The notes below the pieces were generated by a model that was given only the letters and a program-made list of their open reading frames with translations, made no database searches and was not told the origin of the DNA. A stretch of 24,388 nt of DNA from positions 1-24,388 of the IMG/VR virus record IMGVR_UViG_3300042881_004954. One strand, 5' to 3'. Source of the DNA: a virus. Positions 8,450-23,953 of the stretch are shown piece after piece. The translations under genes and the position numbers were made by a program. Position 1 is the stretch's first letter; every line of letters starts with the position of its first letter.

Positions 8450-8521
8450 AGCCAGAAATCGGATTCGAACCGATGACCTGCGGTTTACAAAACCGCTGCA
8501 CTACCGCTGTGCTATTCTGGC
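8450..8521 (-). tRNA. tRNA-Thr (anticodon UGU)
   Basis: A full cloverleaf on the minus strand: acceptor GCCAGAA/TTCTGGC, D arm GCAC-AGCGGTA-GTGC, anticodon stem GCGGT/ACCGC with loop TTTGTAA (anticodon TGT), T arm ATCGG-TTCGAAT-CCGAT, discriminator T. CCA is not encoded. It reads ACA, a codon expected to be common in this AT-rich genome. It follows the 65-residue gene and is likely co-transcribed with it. Confidence 0.95.
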
Positions 8522-9426: not shown

Positions 9427-9433
9427 TAAAACT

Positions 9434-9822
9434 TGGACCAGGGGGAAATCGAATCCCCGTCTTTTAGAGAATTTAAATTAAAATACTACAAGTTTAGTTC
9501 TTTTTGTTTTTAGCTTTGTATAGATAAAGAACAAACATACTCAGCGATTTTATTTTGAGTACTAAACCTATAAAGAATAAAAAAACTTTATAAATAAAGA
9601 CATCTAAATACGCAACTATCCATTAGATGTGTCATGGTAATCACGCTGTAGAACTTAGGCTACAGAAACGGTCTCCTCAACTAGAGAAACTCTAGCAGAG
9701 ATATGACCTTTGTATTTAGCTGTTTTGGCAGTTAATACTTTTTAAGGCTTTTTAAAGAGACCCACCTAAACCTCTACTTGCATTCTAATTCCGATTCCTA
9801 AAATCGAAACCAGATCTGGCCC
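9434..9822 (-). ncRNA. ssrA: tmRNA (transfer-messenger RNA), 389 nt
   Basis: The 5' end GGGCCAG (9822-9816) pairs fully with CTGGTCC (3' end, 9441-9435) as the acceptor stem. It is followed by the hallmark ATCTGGTTTCGA; the 3' part has the T arm GACGGGGATTCGATTTCCCC. The segment GCAAGTAGAGG...TAAAAAGCC matches the standard 5' domain. TTAACT then leads to the resume codon GCC. The tag reading frame (9729-9655) encodes 24 residues, AKTAKYKGHIS... ending ...EETVSVA, then TAA. A 3' region with pseudoknot-like repeats follows. The CCA end is not encoded. tmRNA with SmpB rescues stalled ribosomes and tags the product for degradation. Phage-borne copies are uncommon. Confidence 0.96.
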
Positions 9823-9851
9823 AATGAGAAAGAACTTATATTATTTTACAC

Positions 9852-12652: not shown

Positions 12653-14908
12653 TTATAATTTACACGCTCCAGAGGAACAATCGCGATCTTCTTTTTGATT
12701 CATTAGCTGCTCCTTATCTCCATCATCTGTATTATTATAATAAAGACTAATTAAACCTAGAGAGTAAGCTTGCATAATTTCTTTCATTACTTTAGCGTCT
12801 GGAAGAACATTGTTTTCATAATGAGAATAATTGTAGTATACATTAGTTGATATTGCCATGTCAATGTATTTTTGAATAACAGCATTTATTTTTAATAAAC
12901 CAGAATTATCCTTGAAGTCATATGCTAATTCATAGTTATCATCATATTTACCAACCCCAGGAACTAGTACTGGTAATTTACCCATTTTACTCATCTTATA
13001 AGTAATTAAACTCCGAATAGGTTCTACGCCATTTGTTGAGGATTGAATTACAGAGCTACTCTCACATGGCATACATGATGATAATGTAGAATGTCTTAAA
13101 CCAAATTCTTTAATCTCTTTTCTTAATTTTTCCCAATCAAGAGATAGTTTTCTTTTACATAATTCGTTTACTTTATCTTTATAAGTATCAATAGGTAAAA
13201 TTCCCTTTGAATACTTTGTTCTATCAAACTTTTCACATTTACCTTTTTCTTTAGCAAGCTCTAGACTTGATTTTAAAAGATAATATTGAAAATGCTCCAT
13301 CCACTCATCAAGAATTGGAAGCGTTTTATCAGATGTATATTTTAATTCATTTTTAGCAAGATAAGCTGCTAGATTAGTTATTCCTATCCCAAGACTACGA
13401 CGTTTTTTAGCAAAATTTTCAGCAGCAATATTAAAGTAATCTTGAATTTCAATGATTTCATCAAGAAATCTTACGATAAGATCGCAAGTCTTTTCAAGAT
13501 CTTGCCAGCTTTTTATTTCTAGCATATTTACTGCCGAAAGGATGCACATGCCAATTTCACCATTTTTATCGTGATAATCATTTAATGGAATTGTTGGATG
13601 GATAACTTCAGTGCATAAGTTACTCATTGTAACTTTATCAAGCCAAGCTCCGTGATCATTAGCATGGTCAACATTAAGAATATAAATTCTACCAGTTTCA
13701 ACTCTTTCTTTAATAATGAGAGAAAATAATTTACGAGCAGATACTTTCTTTTTAATTTTTAATTTCTTAGCTTCACATTCTTTATAGATTTTGTCGAAGT
13801 TTTTAGTTCCCCAAGCTTCGTATAGCTCTGGAACTTCAGAAGTATTGAATAGGGTAATATCTTCATCTTTTAGAACTCTATCATAAAATAATTTACTCAT
13901 GCCAACTGTATAATCTAATTTACGAACACGATTATCGTCTGTACCTGCATTATTCTTTAGTACTACGATATCTTCTATTTCATAATGCCACCATTGAATA
14001 TTGCAAGTTGCACTCCCGCCTCTTAAGCCATTCTGTTGCCAAGCTTTAACACTACTTTCATAGATTTTTAAAAATGGAATTAATCCCGTATGCACAACCT
14101 CACCATTTTTAATTGGTGAACCGATAGCTCTAATTTTAGATACATCAATCCCAATTCCGCATCTACTGGCAGTAGCCATACTAACAGCAGTAGCACTAGC
14201 TGTTATACTATCTCTGCTGTCATCAACTCCAATTAGACAACAACTAGCATAATTCTTGCTTGGTGTTCTTACTCCAGCCATTACTGGTGTTGGTAAATTA
14301 ATCTTATGTTTACTTATTGCATCGTAAAATTTTCTAACATAGTTTAGTCTCGTATCTTTCGAATAATTTATAAAAGCATAAGCTGCAATTAATATGTATG
14401 CAAATTGTGGAGTCTCGTATATCTTACCAGTGACACGATCTTTAATAAGATATTTATCGCATAATTGTTTTACTCCTGCATATGTAAAATTATAATCTCT
14501 TTCGTGATCAATAAATTCTCCCATTTTATTCAATTCATCTTCATCATACTTCTCTAAAATAATTGGGTCATATATTTTATTCTTCAAACCTTGATTTAAG
14601 AATTCTAGTAATCTTGGCGCATGCTTACCTTTCCAGACATCTTTTCTAAGTTGATAATTTAATAGTCTTCCAGCTACATATTGATAATTTGGTTTTTCTA
14701 CAGAAATTAAATTTGCTGCCGATTCAATTAGAAGTTTATGTATTTCTTTTGTTGAAATACCTTCGTGTATATTTATCTTAGCATTAATCTCTACATCAGT
14801 TAAGCTAACATTACTTAAATCTTGTATTGCCCAACTTATGACTTTGTGAATTTTTTCTATATCAAATTTTTCTGTAATACCATTTCTTTTTTTTACTTTT
14901 ATATTCAT
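12653..14908 (-). CDS. nrdA: Ribonucleoside-diphosphate reductase alpha subunit, class Ia
   Basis: 751 residues, close to E. coli NrdA (761) and collinear with it. It reduces NDPs to dNDPs. An N-terminal ATP cone (residues 1-90, VKKRNGITEKFDIEKIHKV) indicates dATP/ATP allosteric control is retained. The active-site pair is C223 (YASCC) and C455 (GMCILSAVN); the radical site is N430-L-C432-T-E434. The C-terminal redox tail reads DCSSGACKL. The leader carries a 6-bp hairpin and the motif TGTAATATTAG. It lies downstream of the FmdB-like gene with an 81-base gap. Confidence 0.97.
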   Translation of the reverse strand: MNIKVKKRNGITEKFDIEKIHKVISWAIQDLSNVSLTDVEINAKINIHEGISTKEIHKLLIESAANLISVEKPNYQYVAGRLLNYQLRKDVWKGKHAPRLLEFLNQGLKNKIYDPIILEKYDEDELNKMGEFIDHERDYNFTYAGVKQLCDKYLIKDRVTGKIYETPQFAYILIAAYAFINYSKDTRLNYVRKFYDAISKHKINLPTPVMAGVRTPSKNYASCCLIGVDDSRDSITASATAVSMATASRCGIGIDVSKIRAIGSPIKNGEVVHTGLIPFLKIYESSVKAWQQNGLRGGSATCNIQWWHYEIEDIVVLKNNAGTDDNRVRKLDYTVGMSKLFYDRVLKDEDITLFNTSEVPELYEAWGTKNFDKIYKECEAKKLKIKKKVSARKLFSLIIKERVETGRIYILNVDHANDHGAWLDKVTMSNLCTEVIHPTIPLNDYHDKNGEIGMCILSAVNMLEIKSWQDLEKTCDLIVRFLDEIIEIQDYFNIAAENFAKKRRSLGIGITNLAAYLAKNELKYTSDKTLPILDEWMEHFQYYLLKSSLELAKEKGKCEKFDRTKYSKGILPIDTYKDKVNELCKRKLSLDWEKLRKEIKEFGLRHSTLSSCMPCESSSVIQSSTNGVEPIRSLITYKMSKMGKLPVLVPGVGKYDDNYELAYDFKDNSGLLKINAVIQKYIDMAISTNVYYNYSHYENNVLPDAKVMKEIMQAYSLGLISLYYNNTDDGDKEQLMNQKEDRDCSSGACKL

Positions 14909-15338: not shown

Positions 15339-16427
15339 TTATTTTTCTATAATTTGTAAGACTCTATCTGCGAATAATTCCGAATTAAAAGATGATTGTA
15401 ATTCTAATCCTTTATTATTTACTTTATTTAGTCTATATCTTTCTATAGCTTTTTCGCAACCTTGAATGAAATCATCTGTATCGAAATCATAAATATTACC
15501 TTGATTAAATGGTTGACCTTTATGGAAGAACATATTATCATATGCTTCAATCTTGCCATTAGGTTCAATTAGAACTGAATTAGATTCATTAGCCCAATCT
15601 TTGTAAGCATGGGCATTTAATATCACAGCATGCTTACCTAAAGCTACTGATTGAAATTCTGGTAAACCCCAACCTTCACCACCACTCATACCAATAATAA
15701 TATTTCCACTATTTAAGAAATCATTATACATTACATTCTTTGGCATTTGTCCAAGGAAAGAAATATTAAAATAATTTTTACCTTCTAGTATAGAATTAAA
15801 AAGAGCTTTATTATCCTCCTCTTTTAGAAATCCATTATATATTGCACATTGTAAGTGGTATCCTTTTTGATTACCATATTTCTTAAGCCAAGCTTGTATA
15901 ACTTTTTTATGGTGCTTTCTCTTTTCTAATTTACCAACTAGATTGAATATAATTCTACCATCATTAAAATACGTTTTATCTAGCTTGCTAAAATTATATT
16001 TATCAAAAGCTAAAGGTAGATATTCTATATTAGTACACCCTGCATTTCTAAAAATATCTACAGTATATTTAGATGTAAATAATACTTTATCATAATTTTT
16101 TACAATATTAACTTCCTCTTTAGTAGGAGCATCAAGTTCGTAGAAAGATAGTAGATATCTTTTATTCGAACAAGATTCAAGAGAGCCATTGAGATGCCAT
16201 AACTTAAAACATGGATTTTCTCTTTTTACTCTAGCTAAAAAATCAGAAGATTTATTTCTTACATAAGAAAAGAAATTACTATCATCTTCTTGACATGAAA
16301 GATCTAAGGCATTACCTATAGGTAGTAATGTAAAATCTTTATTCTTTTTATAAAGCTCCCTTAAAAGGAGTGTTGATACCTGTCCAAAACTTACCGAATT
16401 AACGGGTACGTTTAAAGTGAAACTCAT
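15339..16427 (-). CDS. GT4-type glycosyltransferase
   Basis: 362 residues with a GT-B layout. The C-terminal domain shows NLVGKLEKRKHHKKVIQAW (about 162-180, donor phosphate side) and the family-4 loop GGEGWGLPE (249-257) followed by ALGKHAVI. The N-terminal domain is short for the family. Phage enzymes of this group transfer sugars to modified DNA bases, to virion proteins or to host surface glycans; the target cannot be told here. Its ATG overlaps the stop of the preceding gene (ATGA), so it is translated with the acidic-tail protein. Confidence 0.88.
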   Translation of the reverse strand: MSFTLNVPVNSVSFGQVSTLLLRELYKKNKDFTLLPIGNALDLSCQEDDSNFFSYVRNKSSDFLARVKRENPCFKLWHLNGSLESCSNKRYLLSFYELDAPTKEEVNIVKNYDKVLFTSKYTVDIFRNAGCTNIEYLPLAFDKYNFSKLDKTYFNDGRIIFNLVGKLEKRKHHKKVIQAWLKKYGNQKGYHLQCAIYNGFLKEEDNKALFNSILEGKNYFNISFLGQMPKNVMYNDFLNSGNIIIGMSGGEGWGLPEFQSVALGKHAVILNAHAYKDWANESNSVLIEPNGKIEAYDNMFFHKGQPFNQGNIYDFDTDDFIQGCEKAIERYRLNKVNNKGLELQSSFNSELFADRVLQIIEK

Positions 16428-16714
16428 AGAATGTCATCTTCATCCTCTTGAGTTTGTTGTACTTGCTTTACGTTATTAGTTTTTACAGCTGTCTTAACTT
16501 GTTTATTTTCTAGTGGTTTAGAAACATATAGTCTGTAATCTGGAGCTTTTTCGTTCTTTTTATTTCCATTAGCAAAAACTACAACATCAATTCTTTGACC
16601 ATCATGGTCATTGATATATCCAGATAGGAATGACATTCCAGTTTTACTCTTCTTTTTCCAGAGAGCGCCTAGTTCTTGATTTTTATTATTATTTGTATTG
16701 TTTGTTTTATTCAT
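16424..16714 (-). CDS. Small OB-like protein with SSB-type acidic tail
   Basis: 96 residues: an Asn/Lys-rich start, a core ELGALWKKKSKTGMSFLSGYI, VVVFANG, DYRLYVSKP, then a Gln/Lys linker and an acidic end QEDEDDIL. The core resembles small phage proteins with an 'ALWK...FLSG' signature, and the acidic end recalls the C-terminal tip of single-stranded DNA-binding proteins. A role in DNA replication is plausible but unproven. It has a clear sigma70-like promoter overlapping the sigma gene and is first of a cluster with the glycosyltransferase and FmdB-like genes. Confidence 0.75.
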   Translation of the reverse strand: MNKTNNTNNNKNQELGALWKKKSKTGMSFLSGYINDHDGQRIDVVVFANGNKKNEKAPDYRLYVSKPLENKQVKTAVKTNNVKQVQQTQEDEDDIL

Positions 16715-16722
16715 ATTTTTAT

Positions 16723-16751
16723 ATATTACTATGTTTATTATATTTTGTCAA
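16723..16751 (-). promoter_or_regulatory. Sigma70-like promoter, leaderless type
   Basis: TTGACA (16751-16746), a 17-base spacer, TAATAT (16728-16723), 8 bases before the ATG at 16714. It overlaps the last codons of the sigma-like gene, letting the downstream cluster be transcribed on its own. Confidence 0.7.
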
Positions 16752-17322
16752 AATAATTTTTACTTGTAATTTTTTTATTTAAAAATTCAAGAGCTTTATT
16801 ATGTATATTAATAGCGGTCTGAGTACTTATATGCAATTTTCTACCTATCTCATTCCAAGCTTTTAATTTTTTAGAATCAAAATATCTCATCTTAAATATC
16901 TTTTCTATCCTTTTATCTTTCATATTGGATAGTATATCGAATATATAGTCTAATTTAGATGGGTCAAAATTATTCATTTCTTCAATTTGTCTTTTCTCTA
17001 CTAGATATTTAATGTTTTCATCATCAAGACAAAGATTATTTTTATTTTTATTTAAAATATTTAAACAAAAGTATCTCATTTGATTACCTAACCAACTAGA
17101 ATATTTTATTTTCTTTTTAGGATCAAAAGATAAAGCGGCTTGATAGACAACATAAGTCTTATCTCTGACAAGATCCTCAATACTATAACTTTTAGCATTT
17201 AATTGCCCTAGATATTTCTTAATTATTTTAACGCACAGACCTCCGTGAAGCTCGTCTAAGGCTTTTACAGAATCTGAGCAGTGATTCTTTTTTATTTTTT
17301 TAATTAGTTGAGATTCGTTCAT
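16738..17322 (-). CDS. Sigma70-family RNA polymerase sigma factor, divergent phage type
   Basis: 194 residues, a two-domain layout. Residues about 20-95 read as sigma region 2 (SIEDLVRDKTYVVYQAALSFDPKKKIKYSSWLGNQMRYF, compare the classic DLxQ...A...FDPxxGxxFxTYA pattern). Residues about 128-185 read as region 4, a helix-turn-helix (KIFKMRYFD...WNEIGRKLHISTQTAINIHNKALEFL). It would direct the host polymerase to a phage promoter class, as T4 gp55 does at late genes. Its start lies inside the dNMP kinase gene (23-base overlap). The recurrent TATAGTGTAAtAT motif is a candidate target. Confidence 0.85.
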   Translation of the reverse strand: MNESQLIKKIKKNHCSDSVKALDELHGGLCVKIIKKYLGQLNAKSYSIEDLVRDKTYVVYQAALSFDPKKKIKYSSWLGNQMRYFCLNILNKNKNNLCLDDENIKYLVEKRQIEEMNNFDPSKLDYIFDILSNMKDKRIEKIFKMRYFDSKKLKAWNEIGRKLHISTQTAINIHNKALEFLNKKITSKNYFDKI

Positions 17323-17884
17323 AAATATTTTTTAAGTGTTTTTGTACTAATTCGTATAAGAAATTTGTATCTTGGCATGTATCCCAAGCGACACAATAAT
17401 CGGCAACAGCTTTTAATTTATTATCATTAGCTTTTTCTTCTATATTAGCTGGAGGAACAAGTGAGCCATCATCTAATTTTCTGGATATATGCACCAATAT
17501 GCCATTATGAGATTTTAGCCAAGAATATTCATCATCCTTGTATTCAATATATCTAATATCAGTAATGATAGGAATTGTTTTATTCTTAATTAAACCCTTA
17601 ACCCTATCCTCTAAAAGAGAAGTCCAATATTTACCTTCGGTCTGTACTCTTCTGCATTTACCATAAGCTACCATCAATGGTCTAACTAATTCTTTATCAG
17701 AACCATCACATTTAAATAAATCAATCTTAAATTTATCTTTCGTAAATTCATGAAGTTCTTTCTTTAAAGCATCTGCAAGAGCTAATCTCTCAGATTCTAT
17801 TTGTCTCTCTTTTAGATATTTATTAAGTATAGCATAGAACGTATCTTTACCAGATCTAGCAACACCAGTAAGACCTATAATCAT
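17300..17884 (-). CDS. Deoxynucleoside monophosphate kinase
   Basis: 194 residues from the ATG at 17884 (MIIGLTG). An upstream TTG extension is rejected because it would run over the promoter. The Walker A motif is G7-VARS-G12-K13-DT. The following ALADALKKEL, R(V)QTEGKYWTSLL and PIITDIRYIEY segments fit the phage dNMP kinase family (T4 gp1-like), which phosphorylates dNMPs for dNTP supply. It has a strong promoter divergent from the Cys-rich plus-strand gene, and the sigma factor gene overlaps its 3' end. Confidence 0.88.
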   Translation of the reverse strand: MIIGLTGVARSGKDTFYAILNKYLKERQIESERLALADALKKELHEFTKDKFKIDLFKCDGSDKELVRPLMVAYGKCRRVQTEGKYWTSLLEDRVKGLIKNKTIPIITDIRYIEYKDDEYSWLKSHNGILVHISRKLDDGSLVPPANIEEKANDNKLKAVADYCVAWDTCQDTNFLYELVQKHLKNIYERISTN

Positions 17885-17891
17885 AGTGTAT

Positions 17892-17942
17892 ATATTATTA
17901 TATGTTTTTTTCTTTGTCAATCCAATTGTAATATTATATAAT
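17892..17942. promoter_or_regulatory. Divergent sigma70-like promoters with overlapping -35 boxes
   Basis: Plus: TTGTCA (17914-17919), 17 bases, TATAAT (17937-17942), 7 bases before the ATG at 17950. Minus: TTGACA (17920-17915), 17 bases, TAATAT (17897-17892), 7 bases before the ATG at 17884. The two -35 hexamers share 5 bases, so polymerase should occupy only one at a time. Both predicted start points fall at the ATG. Confidence 0.8.
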
Positions 17943-17949
17943 AAAATAT

Positions 17950-18471
17950 ATGTCTAATTGCGCTGATAAACCACAAATTTTAAATCTTAATGATGAAAAT
18001 GAACCCTGCGGTTGCTTTTCAGCAAGATGCGCAGGGTCAGGATGTAAATTAAAATTTAAATATGTTAACGTAAATGCAATTCAAGATGATGTATTTGAAT
18101 TAACAGTAATCGTTACTGATTGTGAGGGTACAGAAACAAAGACGAATATAGGTACTATAAATGGTAGATGTGATGCATATTATATTAATCCTGAAACTGG
18201 CGAGCAATCTGAATGCCAGTGTACGAAAGTTGATGAAAGAACTCTAGAGTGGGAATTATCATTACAAAATATTAAGGACTTTGATATATGTGAATCGTGC
18301 AAAATTGAAGTCGAGATAAAACAAGTTGGAGATAACGAGTGTGGAACTTTTGCTACATTTGATGTTATAGGTCCATGCGGACCTGGATTTGAAGGAACAA
18401 TGGCGCAGGGAACATTTCAGATTGATTTATATAAAGCCTGCTTTGAATGTAAAAACTTTTTGACATATTAA
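17950..18471 (+). CDS. Cysteine-rich beta-type protein, unknown
   Basis: 173 residues with about 17 Cys, in clusters such as CGCFSARCAGSGC near the N-terminus, ECQC in the middle, CESC near residue 118 and CFEC near the end. The middle (KFKYVNVNAIQDDVFELTVIV, TLEWELSLQNI, KIEVEIKQV) looks like an Ig-like beta sandwich. No signal peptide or membrane span is present. It could be a metal-binding or disulfide-bonded virion or host-interaction protein. It opens the plus-strand block from a leaderless-type promoter. No family is recognised. Confidence 0.75.
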   Translation: MSNCADKPQILNLNDENEPCGCFSARCAGSGCKLKFKYVNVNAIQDDVFELTVIVTDCEGTETKTNIGTINGRCDAYYINPETGEQSECQCTKVDERTLEWELSLQNIKDFDICESCKIEVEIKQVGDNECGTFATFDVIGPCGPGFEGTMAQGTFQIDLYKACFECKNFLTY

Positions 18472-18477
18472 TAAAAT

Positions 18478-18768
18478 ATGAAATTTCAAGATCCATTGCA
18501 TTTTGGTAGTTTTTTAAAAGAAAATATTATATATTTTGAAGATATATTTTTTAAAAAATATTTAGAATTATATACGAAAAATATGAATGATATTAAAAAA
18601 CTTGAATCAGATAAAATATCAGAATATAATATTCAAGAGTTAAAAAATATGTATTTAAAAATACAAGATTATCTCGATGAAAAAAAGATAGAGCATTTTA
18701 AAAATATATTTAACAATAAAAAAATAGAATTTTTATTTATGGGTAAAACATTTTATGTTATTGGATAA
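18478..18768 (+). CDS. Unknown small helical protein
   Basis: 96 residues, very rich in Lys, Ile, Phe and Asn and predominantly helical (NDIKKLESDKISEYNIQELKN). It ends FLFMGKTFYVIG. It starts 6 bases after the previous stop and overlaps the next gene by 14 bases, as in a tight operon. No motif is recognised. Confidence 0.6.
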   Translation: MKFQDPLHFGSFLKENIIYFEDIFFKKYLELYTKNMNDIKKLESDKISEYNIQELKNMYLKIQDYLDEKKIEHFKNIFNNKKIEFLFMGKTFYVIG

Positions 18769-19120
18769 TCTATTATTAATTGGTATACAAACATTATTGT
18801 TAATTGTATTTTTTGAGACAAACTTCATATATGAATATAGTAAATTATTTAGAATTATAAAAAAAATAAGAATAATTAATGAATACGAGGCATATATCTA
18901 CAAAAATAATTTTTTAAAATTTTCTGATTTTTTATCTTTAAAAACAAATTTTATAGCGAAACTATTTTCTTGTCCATTATGTTTAAATTTTTGGTTATCT
19001 TTATTCTCTTGCATTTTGTCAAATAATATGCTATTATTAGGAATAAATTATGTCTTATCAATCTTTACATATTTAGTAATATCTTTATTATATGGAAAAT
19101 ATATCAGAACACATATTTAA
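18755..19120 (+). CDS. Membrane protein with CPxCxxFW motif (DUF1360-like)
   Basis: 121 residues. One N-terminal membrane span (about 2-20), a charged middle, then C73-P-L-C76-LNFW entering a hydrophobic hairpin (about 74-112). The CPxCxxFW signature before a membrane hairpin is that of the DUF1360 group of small membrane proteins, whose function is unknown. The gene overlaps both neighbours (14 and 29 bases), which argues for co-translation. Confidence 0.7.
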   Translation: MLLDNLLLIGIQTLLLIVFFETNFIYEYSKLFRIIKKIRIINEYEAYIYKNNFLKFSDFLSLKTNFIAKLFSCPLCLNFWLSLFSCILSNNMLLLGINYVLSIFTYLVISLLYGKYIRTHI

Positions 19121-19423: not shown

Positions 19424-19444
19424 CTTCTTTTATGTTTAAAGAAG
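19424..19444 (+). promoter_or_regulatory. Hairpin holding the start codon in its loop
   Basis: CTTCTTT-TATGTTT-AAAGAAG is a perfect 7-bp stem whose loop contains the ATG (19432) of the IMPDH/GMPR-family gene. It could expose or hide the start codon. No Shine-Dalgarno sequence is at a usual distance. Confidence 0.45.
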
Positions 19445-20532
19445 CTATTGGATACGAAGATATATCTCTATTACCCAACTTTTCAGATATTCAATCTAGA
19501 AAAAGTGTGTCTACAATTACAAAAATTTCAAAAAATAAATATATTGATATCCCAATTATCTTATCGCCGATGGATACAGTATCTTCTGTAAAATCATGTA
19601 TTAAAATTAACCAAATTGGTGGTGCTGGAGTCCTTCATAGGTTTATGTCTATTGAAGAACAATTAAAGAAGTCCAAAAGGATTAAGGATAATAGTAATTT
19701 TTGTATAAATGCCGTGGGTTTAAAAGATGCAAGAGAAAGATTGCATGCTCTATCAGATATAACGGATGTATTCTTTCTAGATACGGCGAATGGATTATCC
19801 TCAAATGTTGAAGATTTTCTAATTGATTATAAACAGTCGGACTATAAACAAGATATTATCGTTGGTAATACTCTCACAAAAGAAAGTGTTTATAGATTAG
19901 CCAATCTAAAAGCAGATGGATTTAGACATCTAATTGGCCCTGGATCTATGTGTTTAACTCAAGTTAAGACTGGTATTGGTTGTCCTAGTGTTACTGGACT
20001 TGGATATGCTTGGAAAGCAGTTAGGAATTTTCAATTAGCTAATTTAGATTATTTTAGACACGAAAATCCTAAAGAGGAGAATAGACCAAGTATTCTAGCT
20101 GATGGAGGAATACGTTATCCAAAAGATTTAGTTAAAGCGATAGCCAGCGGAGCCGATGCGGTAATTTGTGGCAGAATCTTTGCTGGCTTGGTTGATATTG
20201 CAGATGAAGAAAATATTATCGAACAAAATGGAAAAAGATATTTTAAATATAGAGGTATGGCTAGTAGAGATGTTGTAGAAGATTACGATCTATATGACGG
20301 CTCGAAGAAAAACCTCTTTGTTGAAGGAGATAATACTTTGATACCTGTTATTGAAAATAAATCTATCGAAGATGTTGTTTATGATTTTGCAAATGGCTTA
20401 AGAAGCGCTATGAGTTATCTAGGGCTTTCTTCTATAGAAGAAATGAGAGGTGGAATTTGGACTGGAAAAATAAAAGCCGTAAGAGTCACAGCTAATAATA
20501 TGTACGAGGGATTTGCTCATGGAAAATCTTAA
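19432..20532 (+). CDS. IMP dehydrogenase / GMP reductase family enzyme
   Basis: 366 residues: a TIM barrel without the CBS pair found in full-length IMPDH. Motifs: YEDISLLP (8-15), ILSPMDTVSS (43-52), DTANG (117-121), catalytic-loop LIGPGSMC174-LTQ..TGIGCPS, ADGGIRY (223-229), YRGMASRD (273-280), GLRSAMSYLG near the end. C174 is the covalent catalytic Cys. The loop is unusual: families normally read C-T-T-R, here C-L-T-Q. I do not see the R-Y dyad of IMPDH after the flap (the text is NTLIPVI), so GMP reductase (GMP to IMP) is as possible as IMPDH (IMP to XMP). It acts on the same IMP node as PurA, which is encoded nearby. Confidence 0.88.
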   Translation: MFKEAIGYEDISLLPNFSDIQSRKSVSTITKISKNKYIDIPIILSPMDTVSSVKSCIKINQIGGAGVLHRFMSIEEQLKKSKRIKDNSNFCINAVGLKDARERLHALSDITDVFFLDTANGLSSNVEDFLIDYKQSDYKQDIIVGNTLTKESVYRLANLKADGFRHLIGPGSMCLTQVKTGIGCPSVTGLGYAWKAVRNFQLANLDYFRHENPKEENRPSILADGGIRYPKDLVKAIASGADAVICGRIFAGLVDIADEENIIEQNGKRYFKYRGMASRDVVEDYDLYDGSKKNLFVEGDNTLIPVIENKSIEDVVYDFANGLRSAMSYLGLSSIEEMRGGIWTGKIKAVRVTANNMYEGFAHGKS

Positions 20533-20830
20533 AGTAAAAGATATTATCAAGTATTCAATAATACTTATAATCGTATTTCTTGTATATTTTGGTTCATCAG
20601 TTAATGCACAGCAAAGTGACTGTTTAACTAGAGGAATAAACTATCATGTTTCCAAAGCTCAAGTGGATTCAAATATCAAACATATAAAATTGTTAGAGTA
20701 CCAAAAGAAAAACTTATCAATCTTTAATAAGAAAGAATGTATAGAGAGATCAAGAATACAAGCTGTTATCGGCGCAAAAGAAAATGAAAATTTTAGATTA
20801 CAAAGAAAAATGCAGAACGATCTAGAATGA
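20519..20830 (+). CDS. Small exported or membrane-anchored protein
   Basis: 103 residues from the ATG at 20519, which lies inside the previous gene (a TTG 6 bases earlier is also possible). One hydrophobic segment (about 11-27) ends with SSVNA-QQSD, a good signal-peptidase I site after A30. The mature part is helical, basic and has two Cys (C34 and one in KKEC). This could be a secreted protein or, if uncleaved, an inner-membrane spanin-like protein; no lysis partner is identified next to it. Confidence 0.6.
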   Translation: MENLKVKDIIKYSIILIIVFLVYFGSSVNAQQSDCLTRGINYHVSKAQVDSNIKHIKLLEYQKKNLSIFNKKECIERSRIQAVIGAKENENFRLQRKMQNDLE

Positions 20831-21261
20831 GAATATCTTTTGAAGAGATGGCTATTAATATAGCTAATGTGGTAAAAGAAAGATCGGAAGATCCACATAA
20901 AAAAGTTGGAGCGTGTATCCTTAATAAAGAAGGGAGAGTTTTAAGTATAGGATATAATGGATTATTGTCGAAGCAAAAAATCTTTAGCAAATTTTGGCAG
21001 GATCGCGATGAGAGAAGGAAATATGTTATTCACGCAGAAGTAAATGCCTTAGCTTGTATATCTAGATATGACGAGCCGTATGTATTAGCTTCTAGTTTAC
21101 TTCCATGTTCAAATTGTGCTATTAATATTTGCGCTCATGGAATAAAGCACGTATTTTATTCTGAAGAATATCATAAAGATGTCTTGGCGTATGAAATATT
21201 TGATTTTTATAAAGTAAAGTTAAAAAAAATTAATTTTACAAATTACAATATAAACATATAA
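20827..21261 (+). CDS. Deoxycytidylate (dCMP) deaminase
   Basis: 144 residues. The zinc-binding deaminase motifs are H69-A-E71-VNAL and P93-C94-SNC97, with E71 the proton shuttle. GYNGLLS before the HAE motif is typical of dCMP deaminases. The enzyme makes dUMP for thymidylate synthesis, which suits an AT-rich phage. It is somewhat short and lacks the extra Cys/His insert of some family members. It overlaps the upstream gene by 4 bases (ATGA). Confidence 0.9.
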   Translation: MRISFEEMAINIANVVKERSEDPHKKVGACILNKEGRVLSIGYNGLLSKQKIFSKFWQDRDERRKYVIHAEVNALACISRYDEPYVLASSLLPCSNCAINICAHGIKHVFYSEEYHKDVLAYEIFDFYKVKLKKINFTNYNINI

Positions 21262-21262
21262 T
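21235..21262 (+). promoter_or_regulatory. Sigma70-like promoter near the end of the dCMP deaminase gene
   Basis: TTTACA (21235-21240), 16 bases, TATAAT (21257-21262), 5 bases before the ATG at 21268. It is the same design as the promoter at 22601-22628. Confidence 0.5.
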
Positions 21263-21267
21263 ATATT

Positions 21268-21450
21268 ATGGATTCAAGTGGTAAAAAGTTATTGAATATG
21301 CTGGATCAAATTATACTAAAATTTGAGTGGCAAGACGCAGAGCTTAAAAAAGCAAATCCTCTTTTGACTGGCGAAAGCTGGGATTTATTTCATTTGAAAA
21401 CATTTAAAGATTTATTAATAAAATATATTGAAAACAAAAAGCAAGAGTAA
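21268..21450 (+). CDS. Small acidic/basic helical protein, unknown
   Basis: 60 residues (MDSSGKKLLNMLDQ...), with a WQDAELKKANPLLTGESWDLFHLKTF middle and a Lys-rich end. No motif is recognised. It overlaps the following 56-residue ORF, which lies in the +1 frame. Confidence 0.6.
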   Translation: MDSSGKKLLNMLDQIILKFEWQDAELKKANPLLTGESWDLFHLKTFKDLLIKYIENKKQE

Positions 21451-21598
21451 GAATAAATATTACGCAGTATATTCTAAACATGATAATTTTCTTTATGGAG
21501 TATTCCCATTGTCTAAAGAAGGTTATAAAAAAGCCTCGGAATATGTATCAAAAATAGGATCAAAGAATAAAAATAAATTTGTTATTAGAAAGAAATAA
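21428..21598 (+). CDS. Small ORF (56 residues) from a TTG start or a +1 frameshift
   Basis: The frame opens after a stop at 21419 and reads KTKSKSKNKYYAVYSKHD, FLYGVFPLSKEGYKKA and ends NKFVIRKK. This has the composition of a real small protein (Tyr, Gly and Phe in a sensible pattern, no rare residues). The only upstream initiation codon is TTG at 21428, inside the 60-residue gene. Alternatively ribosomes shift +1 from that gene near AAGCAAGAGTAAG. Its stop abuts the convergent membrane gene. Confidence 0.55.
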   Translation: MKTKSKSKNKYYAVYSKHDNFLYGVFPLSKEGYKKASEYVSKIGSKNKNKFVIRKK

Positions 21599-21599
21599 T

Positions 21600-22577
21600 T
21601 TAACTATTCTCTGGTAGATTTGGGTCGGCAAATTCTTTATTGTGTATTTTTTTAGTTCCTCTTTTAAATTCTTTAAATATAGTTTTTATTTTCTCTACTG
21701 GTTTTTCTATAATTTTTTCTACAATAATAGGCTCTTTAGGCTCAAAGACCTTTCTATCTTTTAATAAAGAATTATAAGCTATTACTAAACATACAGCTAG
21801 TGGATCAAATACTATTACTATTAATATTATAAATATTCTTACCGCAGTCTCTATACTTACGCCAAATGCATCGGCCACAAATTTAAATGTTCCTATTTCT
21901 CCTTTTGTATTATCACTTTCGAGAGTAATTATCTCTTGAGAGATTTGCGATGCTTGTTTTTCTAGATCTTGAAGATTTTGATTTGCTAATGATATCTGTC
22001 CAAATAAAGAATTAATATTCTGCTGAGACCCTTCGACAATCTTATTTCTACTTTCTACCAATTTTGAATCAGTAACTTTTTCTGTTTTACCAGAACTAAA
22101 TAAACCACCACTTGTCGTTCTTGTCGTGGTAACATCTTGTTTCACTGCAGAGTCCAGAGAATTTTGATAAGTTTTTTGTAATTCTACTAGATCTTTTAAT
22201 TTATTCTTATTAAAATCAATTTGAGAAAGAATTAAATTTTGTTGAGATTTTAAACTACTTATCTTTGAAATATTTAAACTATATTGAGAGAAATTTCTTT
22301 GGAAAGCATCAGAAAGAAAGCCAAATATACCAAGACTTGTAATTGCCATTAAAAGTATAGTCGCAGATAGCATATACCTTTTTAGAATTTTATTCGTTTG
22401 GTTCCAGTATCTATAAAGATAGCTTGCTGATACGAGTTTTGCTAATTCCATAGTCCCAGCCATAATAGCTACACTCCAAAAACTTGCTGCAAATAAGAGA
22501 GCTATTCCTTTAACAGAAAAGAAAGCTGCACAAGAAGCTAATGCGAAAGCTGAGAATCCCAATATATACTTAAACAT
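21600..22577 (-). CDS. Four-helix membrane protein with large coiled-coil domain
   Basis: 325 residues. Membrane spans at about 3-21, 24-45 and 68-88 and again at about 245-270 (IFIILIVIVFDPLAVCLVIAYN). Between the third and fourth is a 150-residue Gln/Ser/Lys-rich coiled coil with a TTTRTTSGGLFSSGK turn. The tail is basic (KTIFKEFKRGTKK). I recall this architecture, including the F-D-P-L-A stretch in the last span, in phages of marine bacteria; function is unknown. The coiled coil would lie outside the cytoplasm if the first span enters with the N-terminus in. It has its own motif-type promoter. Confidence 0.8.
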   Translation of the reverse strand: MFKYILGFSAFALASCAAFFSVKGIALLFAASFWSVAIMAGTMELAKLVSASYLYRYWNQTNKILKRYMLSATILLMAITSLGIFGFLSDAFQRNFSQYSLNISKISSLKSQQNLILSQIDFNKNKLKDLVELQKTYQNSLDSAVKQDVTTTRTTSGGLFSSGKTEKVTDSKLVESRNKIVEGSQQNINSLFGQISLANQNLQDLEKQASQISQEIITLESDNTKGEIGTFKFVADAFGVSIETAVRIFIILIVIVFDPLAVCLVIAYNSLLKDRKVFEPKEPIIVEKIIEKPVEKIKTIFKEFKRGTKKIHNKEFADPNLPENS

Positions 22578-22580
22578 AAT

Positions 22581-22591
22581 ATATTTACACT
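22581..22591 (-). promoter_or_regulatory. Promoter-like motif AGTGTAAATAT
   Basis: It lies 3 bases before the ATG at 22577 and is preceded by AAAGT. It is nearly identical to the copy before the coiled-coil gene at 11317. No -35 box is seen. Confidence 0.45.
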
Positions 22592-22600
22592 ACTTTATTC

Positions 22601-22628
22601 TTTACATTTTAAATATATGTACTATAAT
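22601..22628 (+). promoter_or_regulatory. Sigma70-like promoter, leaderless type
   Basis: TTTACA (22601-22606), 16 bases, TATAAT (22623-22628), 8 bases before the ATG at 22637. It drives the SEC-C and purA genes and is divergent from the motif-type promoter of the membrane protein. Confidence 0.65.
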
Positions 22629-22636
22629 CATATTAT

Positions 22637-22885
22637 ATGGAAGAAATTAATAAAATAAGTTTACCAAATAATCCCTACGCAAGAGCCACACCATTTTCCC
22701 CAATCGTAAGGGTTTTCCCTAAGATTAATCGTAACACTTTATGTCCTATGACAAATAAAAAATTTAAGAATTGTTGCGGTGCATCAGGTCAAGACTTTTG
22801 CACTAAAGCAAAAGAAAATCTAGAGAATTATTTAAATGAATTAAAAGCTTCTGCACCCGAAGTTAAAAATGATCAAAGCAGTTGA
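22637..22885 (+). CDS. SEC-C motif mini-protein
   Basis: 82 residues. C36-PMTNKKFKN-C46-C47-G is a SEC-C type zinc-binding motif (usual form CPCGSGKKYKKCCG), lacking the second Cys of the usual CxC. The rest is a Pro-rich N-terminus and a Lys/Glu helix. SEC-C modules mediate protein contacts, for example in SecA. Its end overlaps the purA start by 17 bases. Confidence 0.7.
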   Translation: MEEINKISLPNNPYARATPFSPIVRVFPKINRNTLCPMTNKKFKNCCGASGQDFCTKAKENLENYLNELKASAPEVKNDQSS

Positions 22886-23861
22886 TATTATCTTTGGTTT
22901 AGCTTGGGGAGATGAGGGTAAAGGCAAAATAAGTAATGCTATTGCTAAAGATTATGATATTGTTTGCCGCTGGAATGGTGGTCCCAATGCAGGTCACACA
23001 GTTTATCTTAATGATAAAAAATATAAAACTCATATTATTCCTTGTGGAGTTTTCCAAAATAAACTTAGCATCATTGGTCCAAATTGCGTTATCAATGTTG
23101 ATAAATTTTTTGACGAGATAGATTATTTAAAGAAAGAAGGATTTGATACATCTTTAATTAAAGTAAGTCCAAAAGCTCATTTAATTACTGAAAGACACAT
23201 TAGATATGATCTAGCTATTCTTAAAAAGAAATTGGGTACGACTGGTCAAGGCATTGCTCCTTCGTATGCAGATAAAATGTTAAGAGTAGGTAAACTTGCT
23301 AGAGATTATATTGATAAAGAATATCTTTGGGATGGTCAACTTTATGGCAATATTCTTTGTGAAGGGGCGCAAAGTTTTTGGCTTGATATTAATTATGGTG
23401 ATTATCCTTACGTTACTAGTAGTGAGACCTTACCTTATTCCGCATCCTCTTTAGGATTCTCTCCTAAAAAAATCAGAGATATTATCGGAGTAGCAAAAAT
23501 TTACGATACCAAGAGTGGCGTAGACCCACTATTCCCAGAGACTCTTTGGGAAGATCCAGAATTAAATATGTTAATAGAAGCTGGTCAAGAGTTTGGCTCT
23601 ACAACTGGAAGAAGAAGAATTGCTAATTGGTTAAACCTAAATAAACTAATTGATGCAATTAAAATTTCTGGAGTAACAAAACTTATTATTAATAAATGTG
23701 ATATATTACAAAAGATACACACTTACAAATTATTTCAAAATAATAATCTTTATAAGTTTAATACTTTGCAAGCTATGGAATCTTTCATTAGATCTCAATT
23801 AAATCATAATTTGGATGAATTTATTGATATAACTTTTTCTGGAAATAAAGAATATATTTAA
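22869..23861 (+). CDS. purA: Compact adenylosuccinate synthetase (PurA family)
   Basis: 330 residues against about 430 for bacterial PurA; the compact size is like archaeal and phage forms. Motifs: GLAWGDEGKGK (10-20) with catalytic D15, NGGPNAGHT with H43, TTGQGIAP (124-131), EGAQSFWLDI, YPYVTSS, and the aspartate-binding loop GSTTGRRR (243-250). The reaction is IMP + Asp + GTP to adenylosuccinate. PurZ enzymes of 2-aminoadenine phages replace the catalytic Asp (GSTGKG-type loop); here D15 is kept, so a normal PurA reaction is more likely. It follows the SEC-C gene with overlap and the tRNA-Ser starts 5 bases after its stop. Confidence 0.9.
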   Translation: MIKAVDIIFGLAWGDEGKGKISNAIAKDYDIVCRWNGGPNAGHTVYLNDKKYKTHIIPCGVFQNKLSIIGPNCVINVDKFFDEIDYLKKEGFDTSLIKVSPKAHLITERHIRYDLAILKKKLGTTGQGIAPSYADKMLRVGKLARDYIDKEYLWDGQLYGNILCEGAQSFWLDINYGDYPYVTSSETLPYSASSLGFSPKKIRDIIGVAKIYDTKSGVDPLFPETLWEDPELNMLIEAGQEFGSTTGRRRIANWLNLNKLIDAIKISGVTKLIINKCDILQKIHTYKLFQNNNLYKFNTLQAMESFIRSQLNHNLDEFIDITFSGNKEYI

Positions 23862-23865
23862 TATT

Positions 23866-23953
23866 GGTGCGATGGCTGAGTGGTCTAAAGCAGAAGTTTA
23901 CTAAACTTCCGATGGTTTAATATCATCCGTAGGTTCGAATCCTACTCGCACCG
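23866..23953 (+). tRNA. tRNA-Ser with unusual anticodon ACU
   Basis: Class II tRNA: acceptor GGTGCGA/TCGCACC, short D arm, anticodon stem GAAGT/ACTTC with loop TTACTAA, giving anticodon A-C-U at 23900-23902. A long variable arm (GATG...CATC), T arm GTAGG-TTCGAAT-CCTAC and discriminator G all point to serine. CCA is not encoded. The expected anticodon would be GCU; A34 would read AGU. Confidence 0.93.

Follow-up and report, generated by a model that had tools for sequence, protein, structure and literature searches.

Divergent sigma70 promoters arranged back to back are pairs of promoters that point away from a common upstream zone. In phage lambda, the cI message from PRM is made near a divergent promoter. 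This phage message also starts at its AUG (cI is named in PMC9031893), as is predicted for the messages described here. In E. coli, bidirectional promoters consist of pseudo-symmetric DNA on which polymerase is placed in two orientations with mutually exclusive binding; the -10 is the shared element, and the starts lie 10, 18 or 23 bp apart (Warman et al. 2026, PMC12825309). At the level of translation, an in silico survey of bacterial genomes found leaderless (TA-led) genes marked by a TANNNT about 12 bp before the start codon and by the lack of a Shine-Dalgarno (SD) site (Zheng et al. 2011, PMC3160421), and leaderless translation in E. coli is known to favour AUG (PMC9031893). Neither leaderless mRNAs nor bidirectional promoters are new in themselves; their combination in a clade where leaderless starts seem widespread appears to be. 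A narrow search of the open-access literature found no prior description of such a phage lineage, and an open-access search for shared or overlapping -35 boxes gave nothing usable.

Here, we describe a 65-bp region in a virus record of 24,388 bases (the window, i.e. the whole stretch of DNA that was analysed). The region probably works as a compact two-way promoter of the sigma70 type: polymerase would bind in one orientation at a time, and two leaderless mRNAs would result. As in the E. coli promoters, the DNA is pseudo-symmetric, polymerase would bind in two orientations and binding is expected to be mutually exclusive. Unlike in those promoters, it is the -35 that is shared, with 62-65 bp between the inferred starts. 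The locus therefore falls outside the Warman/Grainger definition of a bidirectional promoter, its -10s being at 17892-17897 and 17937-17942 with inferred starts ~65 bp apart; by analogy, the phage module would work like such a promoter with the -35 as its shared element. The TA-led genes were described in bacterial genomes, whereas here the same signal and lack of an SD occur in phages, where the promoter is a complete TTGACA/17/TATAAT and two such starts are joined back to back. Lambda PRM has operators, a repressor and Cro, none of which was found here, and in the clade studied here starts of the leaderless type are spread over many gene families. Finally, relative to back-to-back sigma70 pairs in general, the -35 boxes overlap by 5 bp, the spacers are fixed at 17/17 and the ATGs coincide approximately with +1. 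Being conserved, the module offers a compact natural test of polymerases sharing one -35 box.

The features of the two arms are collected in Table 1. A sequence-only reading had proposed divergent leaderless promoters with a common -35 box, and its geometry proved exact to the base, in coordinates and letters: TTGTCA (+) and TTGACA (-) overlap by 5 bp (17915-17919), both spacers are 17 nt, an ATG lies 7 nt beyond the -10 on each arm, and the ATG-to-ATG interval is 65 bp. The same reading called both -10 boxes good, which suits the TATAAT of the plus arm but not the TAATAT of the minus arm, which is just fair (4/6). A perfect TATAAT does occur on the minus side 5 bp closer to the -35, but its spacer of 12 nt is unfavourable; in relatives, the -10 at the 17-nt position is kept as TATAAT, TATGAT, TATCAT or TATAGT. 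The plus-arm promoter matches the consensus at 11 of 12 positions and the minus-arm promoter at 10 of 12, and the TTG-A-CAA at the shared -35 is a dyad around one base pair. In sequence the locus fits a sigma70-type divergent pair, the mark of which is a -35 and a -10 box with a 16-18 nt spacer on both strands, each promoter facing a gene. Single sigma70-consensus matches are near chance in the AT-rich window (100 vs 88 +/- 12 in shuffles); the argument therefore draws on geometry and conservation.

Table 1. Coordinates, strands and supporting details of the promoter elements and genes in the window.
Feature	Position	Strand	Details
Second leaderless-type promoter, TTGACA-17-TAATAT	16723..16751	-	8 nt before ATG of 96-aa gene
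96-aa protein gene	16424-16714	-	Weak DUF736 (PF05284) match
Sigma-factor-like protein, kinase arm gene 2	16738..17322	-	phrog_36, phrog_351, phrog_1740
dNMP (deoxynucleoside monophosphate) kinase	17300..17884	-	phrog_139, E 2e-19; ATG ~ +1 (predicted)
Minus-arm (kinase) -10, TAATAT	17892..17897	-	4/6; 17-nt spacer; ATG 17884, 7 nt on
Minus-arm (kinase) -35, TTGACA	17915..17920	-	TTGACAA conserved in box-sharing relatives
Plus-arm -35, TTGTCA	17914..17919	+	17915-17919 common with minus-arm box
Plus-arm -10, TATAAT	17937..17942	+	17-nt spacer; ATG at 17950, 7 nt on
First plus-arm gene, 173-aa Cys-containing orphan	17950..18471	+	ATG ~ +1 of inferred transcript
Homologue of 117-aa gene	18755..19120	+	Clustering; gene orders
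GuaB-like gene (phrog_9582)	19432..20532	+	Plus arm; own leaderless-type promoter with TTGACT

The kinase has 50 relatives in viral_contigs, and the shared -35 module lies upstream of it, by strict matching, in the window and 15 of these. In all 16 cases the overlap is 5 bp and the spacers are 17/17, with an ATG-to-ATG gap of 62-65 bp. Four more relatives (L002, L003, L047 and L039) share the -35 with one weak -10. Nine have a divergent neighbour and separate -35 boxes; in a further 22, which occupy one branch of the tree, the neighbour is co-directional with the kinase and there is no such promoter. Sharing of the -35 is thus not required. An overlapping pair with both ATGs is nonetheless not a product of chance: it was seen 16 times, a count inflated by kinship since the sampled contigs are related and are not independent events, whereas none turned up in 60 first-order Markov sequences modelled on the window or in three Markov versions of the 51-sequence set. 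Moreover, a reverse -10 with an ATG accompanies TTGACAA at 18 of 19 sites upstream of the kinase vs 2 of 208 elsewhere in the family, and when 12 of these regions are aligned, hardly any intergenic column stays invariant outside the -10s and the -35; the ATG is invariant too. An exact scan of viral_contigs turned up at least 120 stretches with the perfect symmetric module, which shows that the symmetric DNA as such extends beyond the clade. The setting of most of them is leadered or unclear; leaderless ATGs on both sides occurred in 1 of 120 among the matches listed (L113).

The genes behind the module are less constant. Across the shared-box cases, the first gene of the left arm (the plus arm of the window) is the 117-aa gene (L004-L006 and L013), a 19-aa hydrophobic ORF, a dCMP-deaminase-like gene or the 173-aa orphan of the window, and the arm strengths differ by lineage (11/11, 12/9 and 10/11 of 12 for kinase arm/other arm). 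In relatives such as L004, the promoter is followed outward by the 117-aa gene, a ~93-aa gene and the GuaB-like gene. In the window, the 117-aa homologue lies at 18755, then a 100-aa gene and then the GuaB-like gene at 19432, with the 173-aa gene and a 96-aa gene standing between the conserved promoter and the 117-aa homologue. With two extra genes directly behind it, the promoter has apparently persisted through a change of its first gene. The 173-aa protein has no family in PHROGs or Pfam and no relative in viral_contigs.

Could the shared box simply reflect compactness? Two ordinary leaderless divergent promoters might come to overlap through the preferred TTGACAA and a short intergenic space, with no functional consequence. 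Promoters of the clade that are not divergent (those of the 96-101-aa gene) often have TTGACAA as well, and five bidirectional promoters of E. coli were too weakly transcribed at basal level for polymerases to compete (PMC12825309). The closest relative, L050 (89% kinase identity), tolerates a 13-nt insertion that parts the two -35 boxes; it has a different first left-arm gene, and both its starts are still leaderless in appearance. This lack of a shared -35 in L050, together with the 4/6 minus -10, counts against a two-way promoter. Compactness by itself, however, leaves unexplained why the 5-bp overlap and the 17/17 spacers persist over lineages and four different left arms, and relatives with separate boxes have T rather than A as the seventh base (TTGACTT, TTTACTT, TTGACAT), which is consistent with dual use constraining the A. 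We regard an overlap free of consequence as rather unlikely, and return to the two-way promoter.

The second half of the argument concerns the leaderless starts. In the 51 sequences, the TTGACA-to-ATG distance peaks sharply at 35-38 nt (82/127), and 125 of 1,012 genes have ahead of them a full sigma70-type promoter whose -10 is placed at -12 from the ATG, vs a background of 4.8 per position; the genes so placed span at least 14 families. The -10 boxes of the window start at -13 on both arms, close to the clade peak at -12. These promoter-to-ATG positions equal standard promoter-to-start-site coordinates, so the A of the ATG is expected to be +1. The locus also carries the marks of leaderless genes: a -10-like box ~12 bp ahead of the start codon, an AUG start and no SD site. 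Among 180 strong non-redundant promoters, an ATG lies 6-9 nt beyond the -10 in 106 and a GTG or TTG in 10, while an SD occurs in 0 of 95 short-leader cases. Within the family, a promoter orthologous to that at 16723..16751 stands ahead of the 96-aa gene in 41 of 51 members, and a leaderless-type promoter precedes the GuaB-like gene in 24 of 48. The 96-101-aa gene, leaderless in most members, has an AGGAG-type SD and a 19-26-nt leader in L018, L037, L048 and L043. Downstream of the sigma-like gene, it thus provides a natural contrast of leaderless and SD-led modes.

Given the very high AT content of the region and the near-chance number of single promoter matches in the window, one may ask whether the boxes near the ATGs are artefacts of composition, transcription coming instead from other promoters upstream. 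Such an artefact would hardly produce the sharp -12/-35 peak relative to the ATG, the preference for ATG or the contrast in SD use, and the -12 peak is absent in T4 and HTVC008M, both similarly AT-rich. The whole contigs G001 and G002 have 38 and 20 genes with such a promoter (5.6 and 3.9 expected) and an SD in 18% and 15% of genes, respectively, against 0 in 50 kb of T4 (1.5 expected; SD 48%), 4 in HTVC008M (3.6 expected; SD 45%) and 4, three of them at -12, in Mosig (1.9 expected; SD 41%). We therefore consider leadered transcription from elsewhere very improbable. Leaderless starts appear to be a lineage-wide pattern, of which the module in the window would be one case. Taken with the conservation upstream of the kinase, this clade-wide promoter position relative to the ATG strongly supports the earlier proposal of leaderless divergent promoters sharing a -35. 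Start codons of an uncultured clade become predictable from promoter position, which helps annotation, and the clade lets one ask whether a phage can depend on leaderless initiation.

How would the two-way promoter operate? The pseudo-symmetric heptamer TTG-A-CAA would act as the -35 box in both orientations, with a -10 placed 17 nt off each side, and host polymerase, presumably a sigma70-type holoenzyme, would bind in either of two mirror-image ways, one at a time. The promoter reading presupposes a suitable sigma factor in the host and a host able to use leaderless mRNA. Each transcript would start at the ATG or one base before it, giving leaderless mRNAs that would be translated without a leader. 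One minimal site would in this way drive, probably early, both the kinase arm (dNMP kinase and sigma-like gene) and the plus arm (toward the GuaB-like gene). One sigma-70 domain 4 is accommodated per -35 box, and two polymerases cannot use one box simultaneously. Mutually exclusive binding would follow from this structure. Relative box quality and polymerase competition, rather than a bistable switch, would set the ratio between the arms. In E. coli, five bidirectional promoters showed no competition at basal activity, and strengthening one direction suppressed the other; competition mattered only under strong transcription, where it shaped ratio and noise (PMC12825309). With boxes near consensus, competition and a sequence-set ratio are plausible in the phage.

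The sequence-only reading had gone further and suggested a possible switch between the arms. In such a switch, exclusive binding would let the phage choose an arm, and a regulator or a changing sigma factor would tip the balance. Overlapping -35 boxes must indeed exclude simultaneous sigma binding (established structure), the boxes are near consensus, as in the E. coli situation that did show competition (PMC12825309), and a sigma-like gene is carried in the kinase arm. This part of the proposal found no support. The 65-bp region contains only A/T-rich inverted repeats besides the -35 dyad, i.e. no operator-like repeat; no regulator was identified, nor any repressor-like protein among the proteins scanned, many of which have no family. 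Left-arm genes are interchangeable and relative strengths vary, the boxes are separate in the closest relative, and nucleotide-metabolism genes, likely needed together, lie on both arms. A switch would need a factor that shifts the balance over time, and since none was identified the compact two-way promoter is favoured; we judge a regulatory switch improbable. Given the sigma-like gene in the kinase arm, any control of timing would more plausibly come from that protein, which could serve a later stage of transcription.

On a broader scale, we tentatively suggest that the lineage may have moved the heads of many transcription units to leaderless starts, with much less SD use than T4-like phages, and that the -35 heptamer may split polymerase between two leaderless operons in a ratio tuned by sequence.

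As for the genes and their relatives, the start of the sigma-like gene overlaps the end of the kinase gene in the window, and a Pfam search with the sigma-like protein gave no match. Neither protein has relatives in the named-phage collection, and no bacterial relatives of the kinase were found in genome_contigs, with a single sequence and then with a 22-sequence alignment. The large subunit of ribonucleotide reductase (12653-14908, -) is closest to those of the pelagimyophages HTVC008M and Mosig (53%). A pelagimyophage placement is not claimed from it: the HTVC008M terminase matches the clade weakly (26-27% over ~130 aa), and other genes lack such closeness.

Several further features accompany the locus. 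The stretch at 19432-23861 (+) groups nucleotide-metabolism genes, namely the GuaB-like gene, a dCMP deaminase and an adenylosuccinate-synthetase-like protein (phrog_1211) that retains the WGDEGKGK motif. The window also carries a tmRNA gene (9433-9822, -), present too in L002, L028, L036 and L048, and two tRNA genes (8450-8521, -, and 23866-23953, +). A conserved hydrophobic ORF of 19-22 aa (e.g. MELKFILIMLFSVYLFYKL) comes first on the left arm, starting at the shared promoter, upstream of the kinase in L007, L024, L026, L041, L039 and L019.

A second motif, GTGTAAA, is found 13-15 nt before the ATG in 23 family cases, setting aside coding matches in nrdB at 16, and few occurrences lie at other distances. 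In the window, it occurs at 22590-22584 (-) before the gene at 21600-22577, and also at 9851 (-) near the tmRNA gene. The motif may mark another class of promoter, perhaps one read by the sigma factor of the phage itself. A further divergent pair lies at 22577-22637, where the ATGs are 59 bp apart; the minus side carries a GTGTAAA-type element and the plus side TTTACA/TATAAT, each directly next to its ATG.
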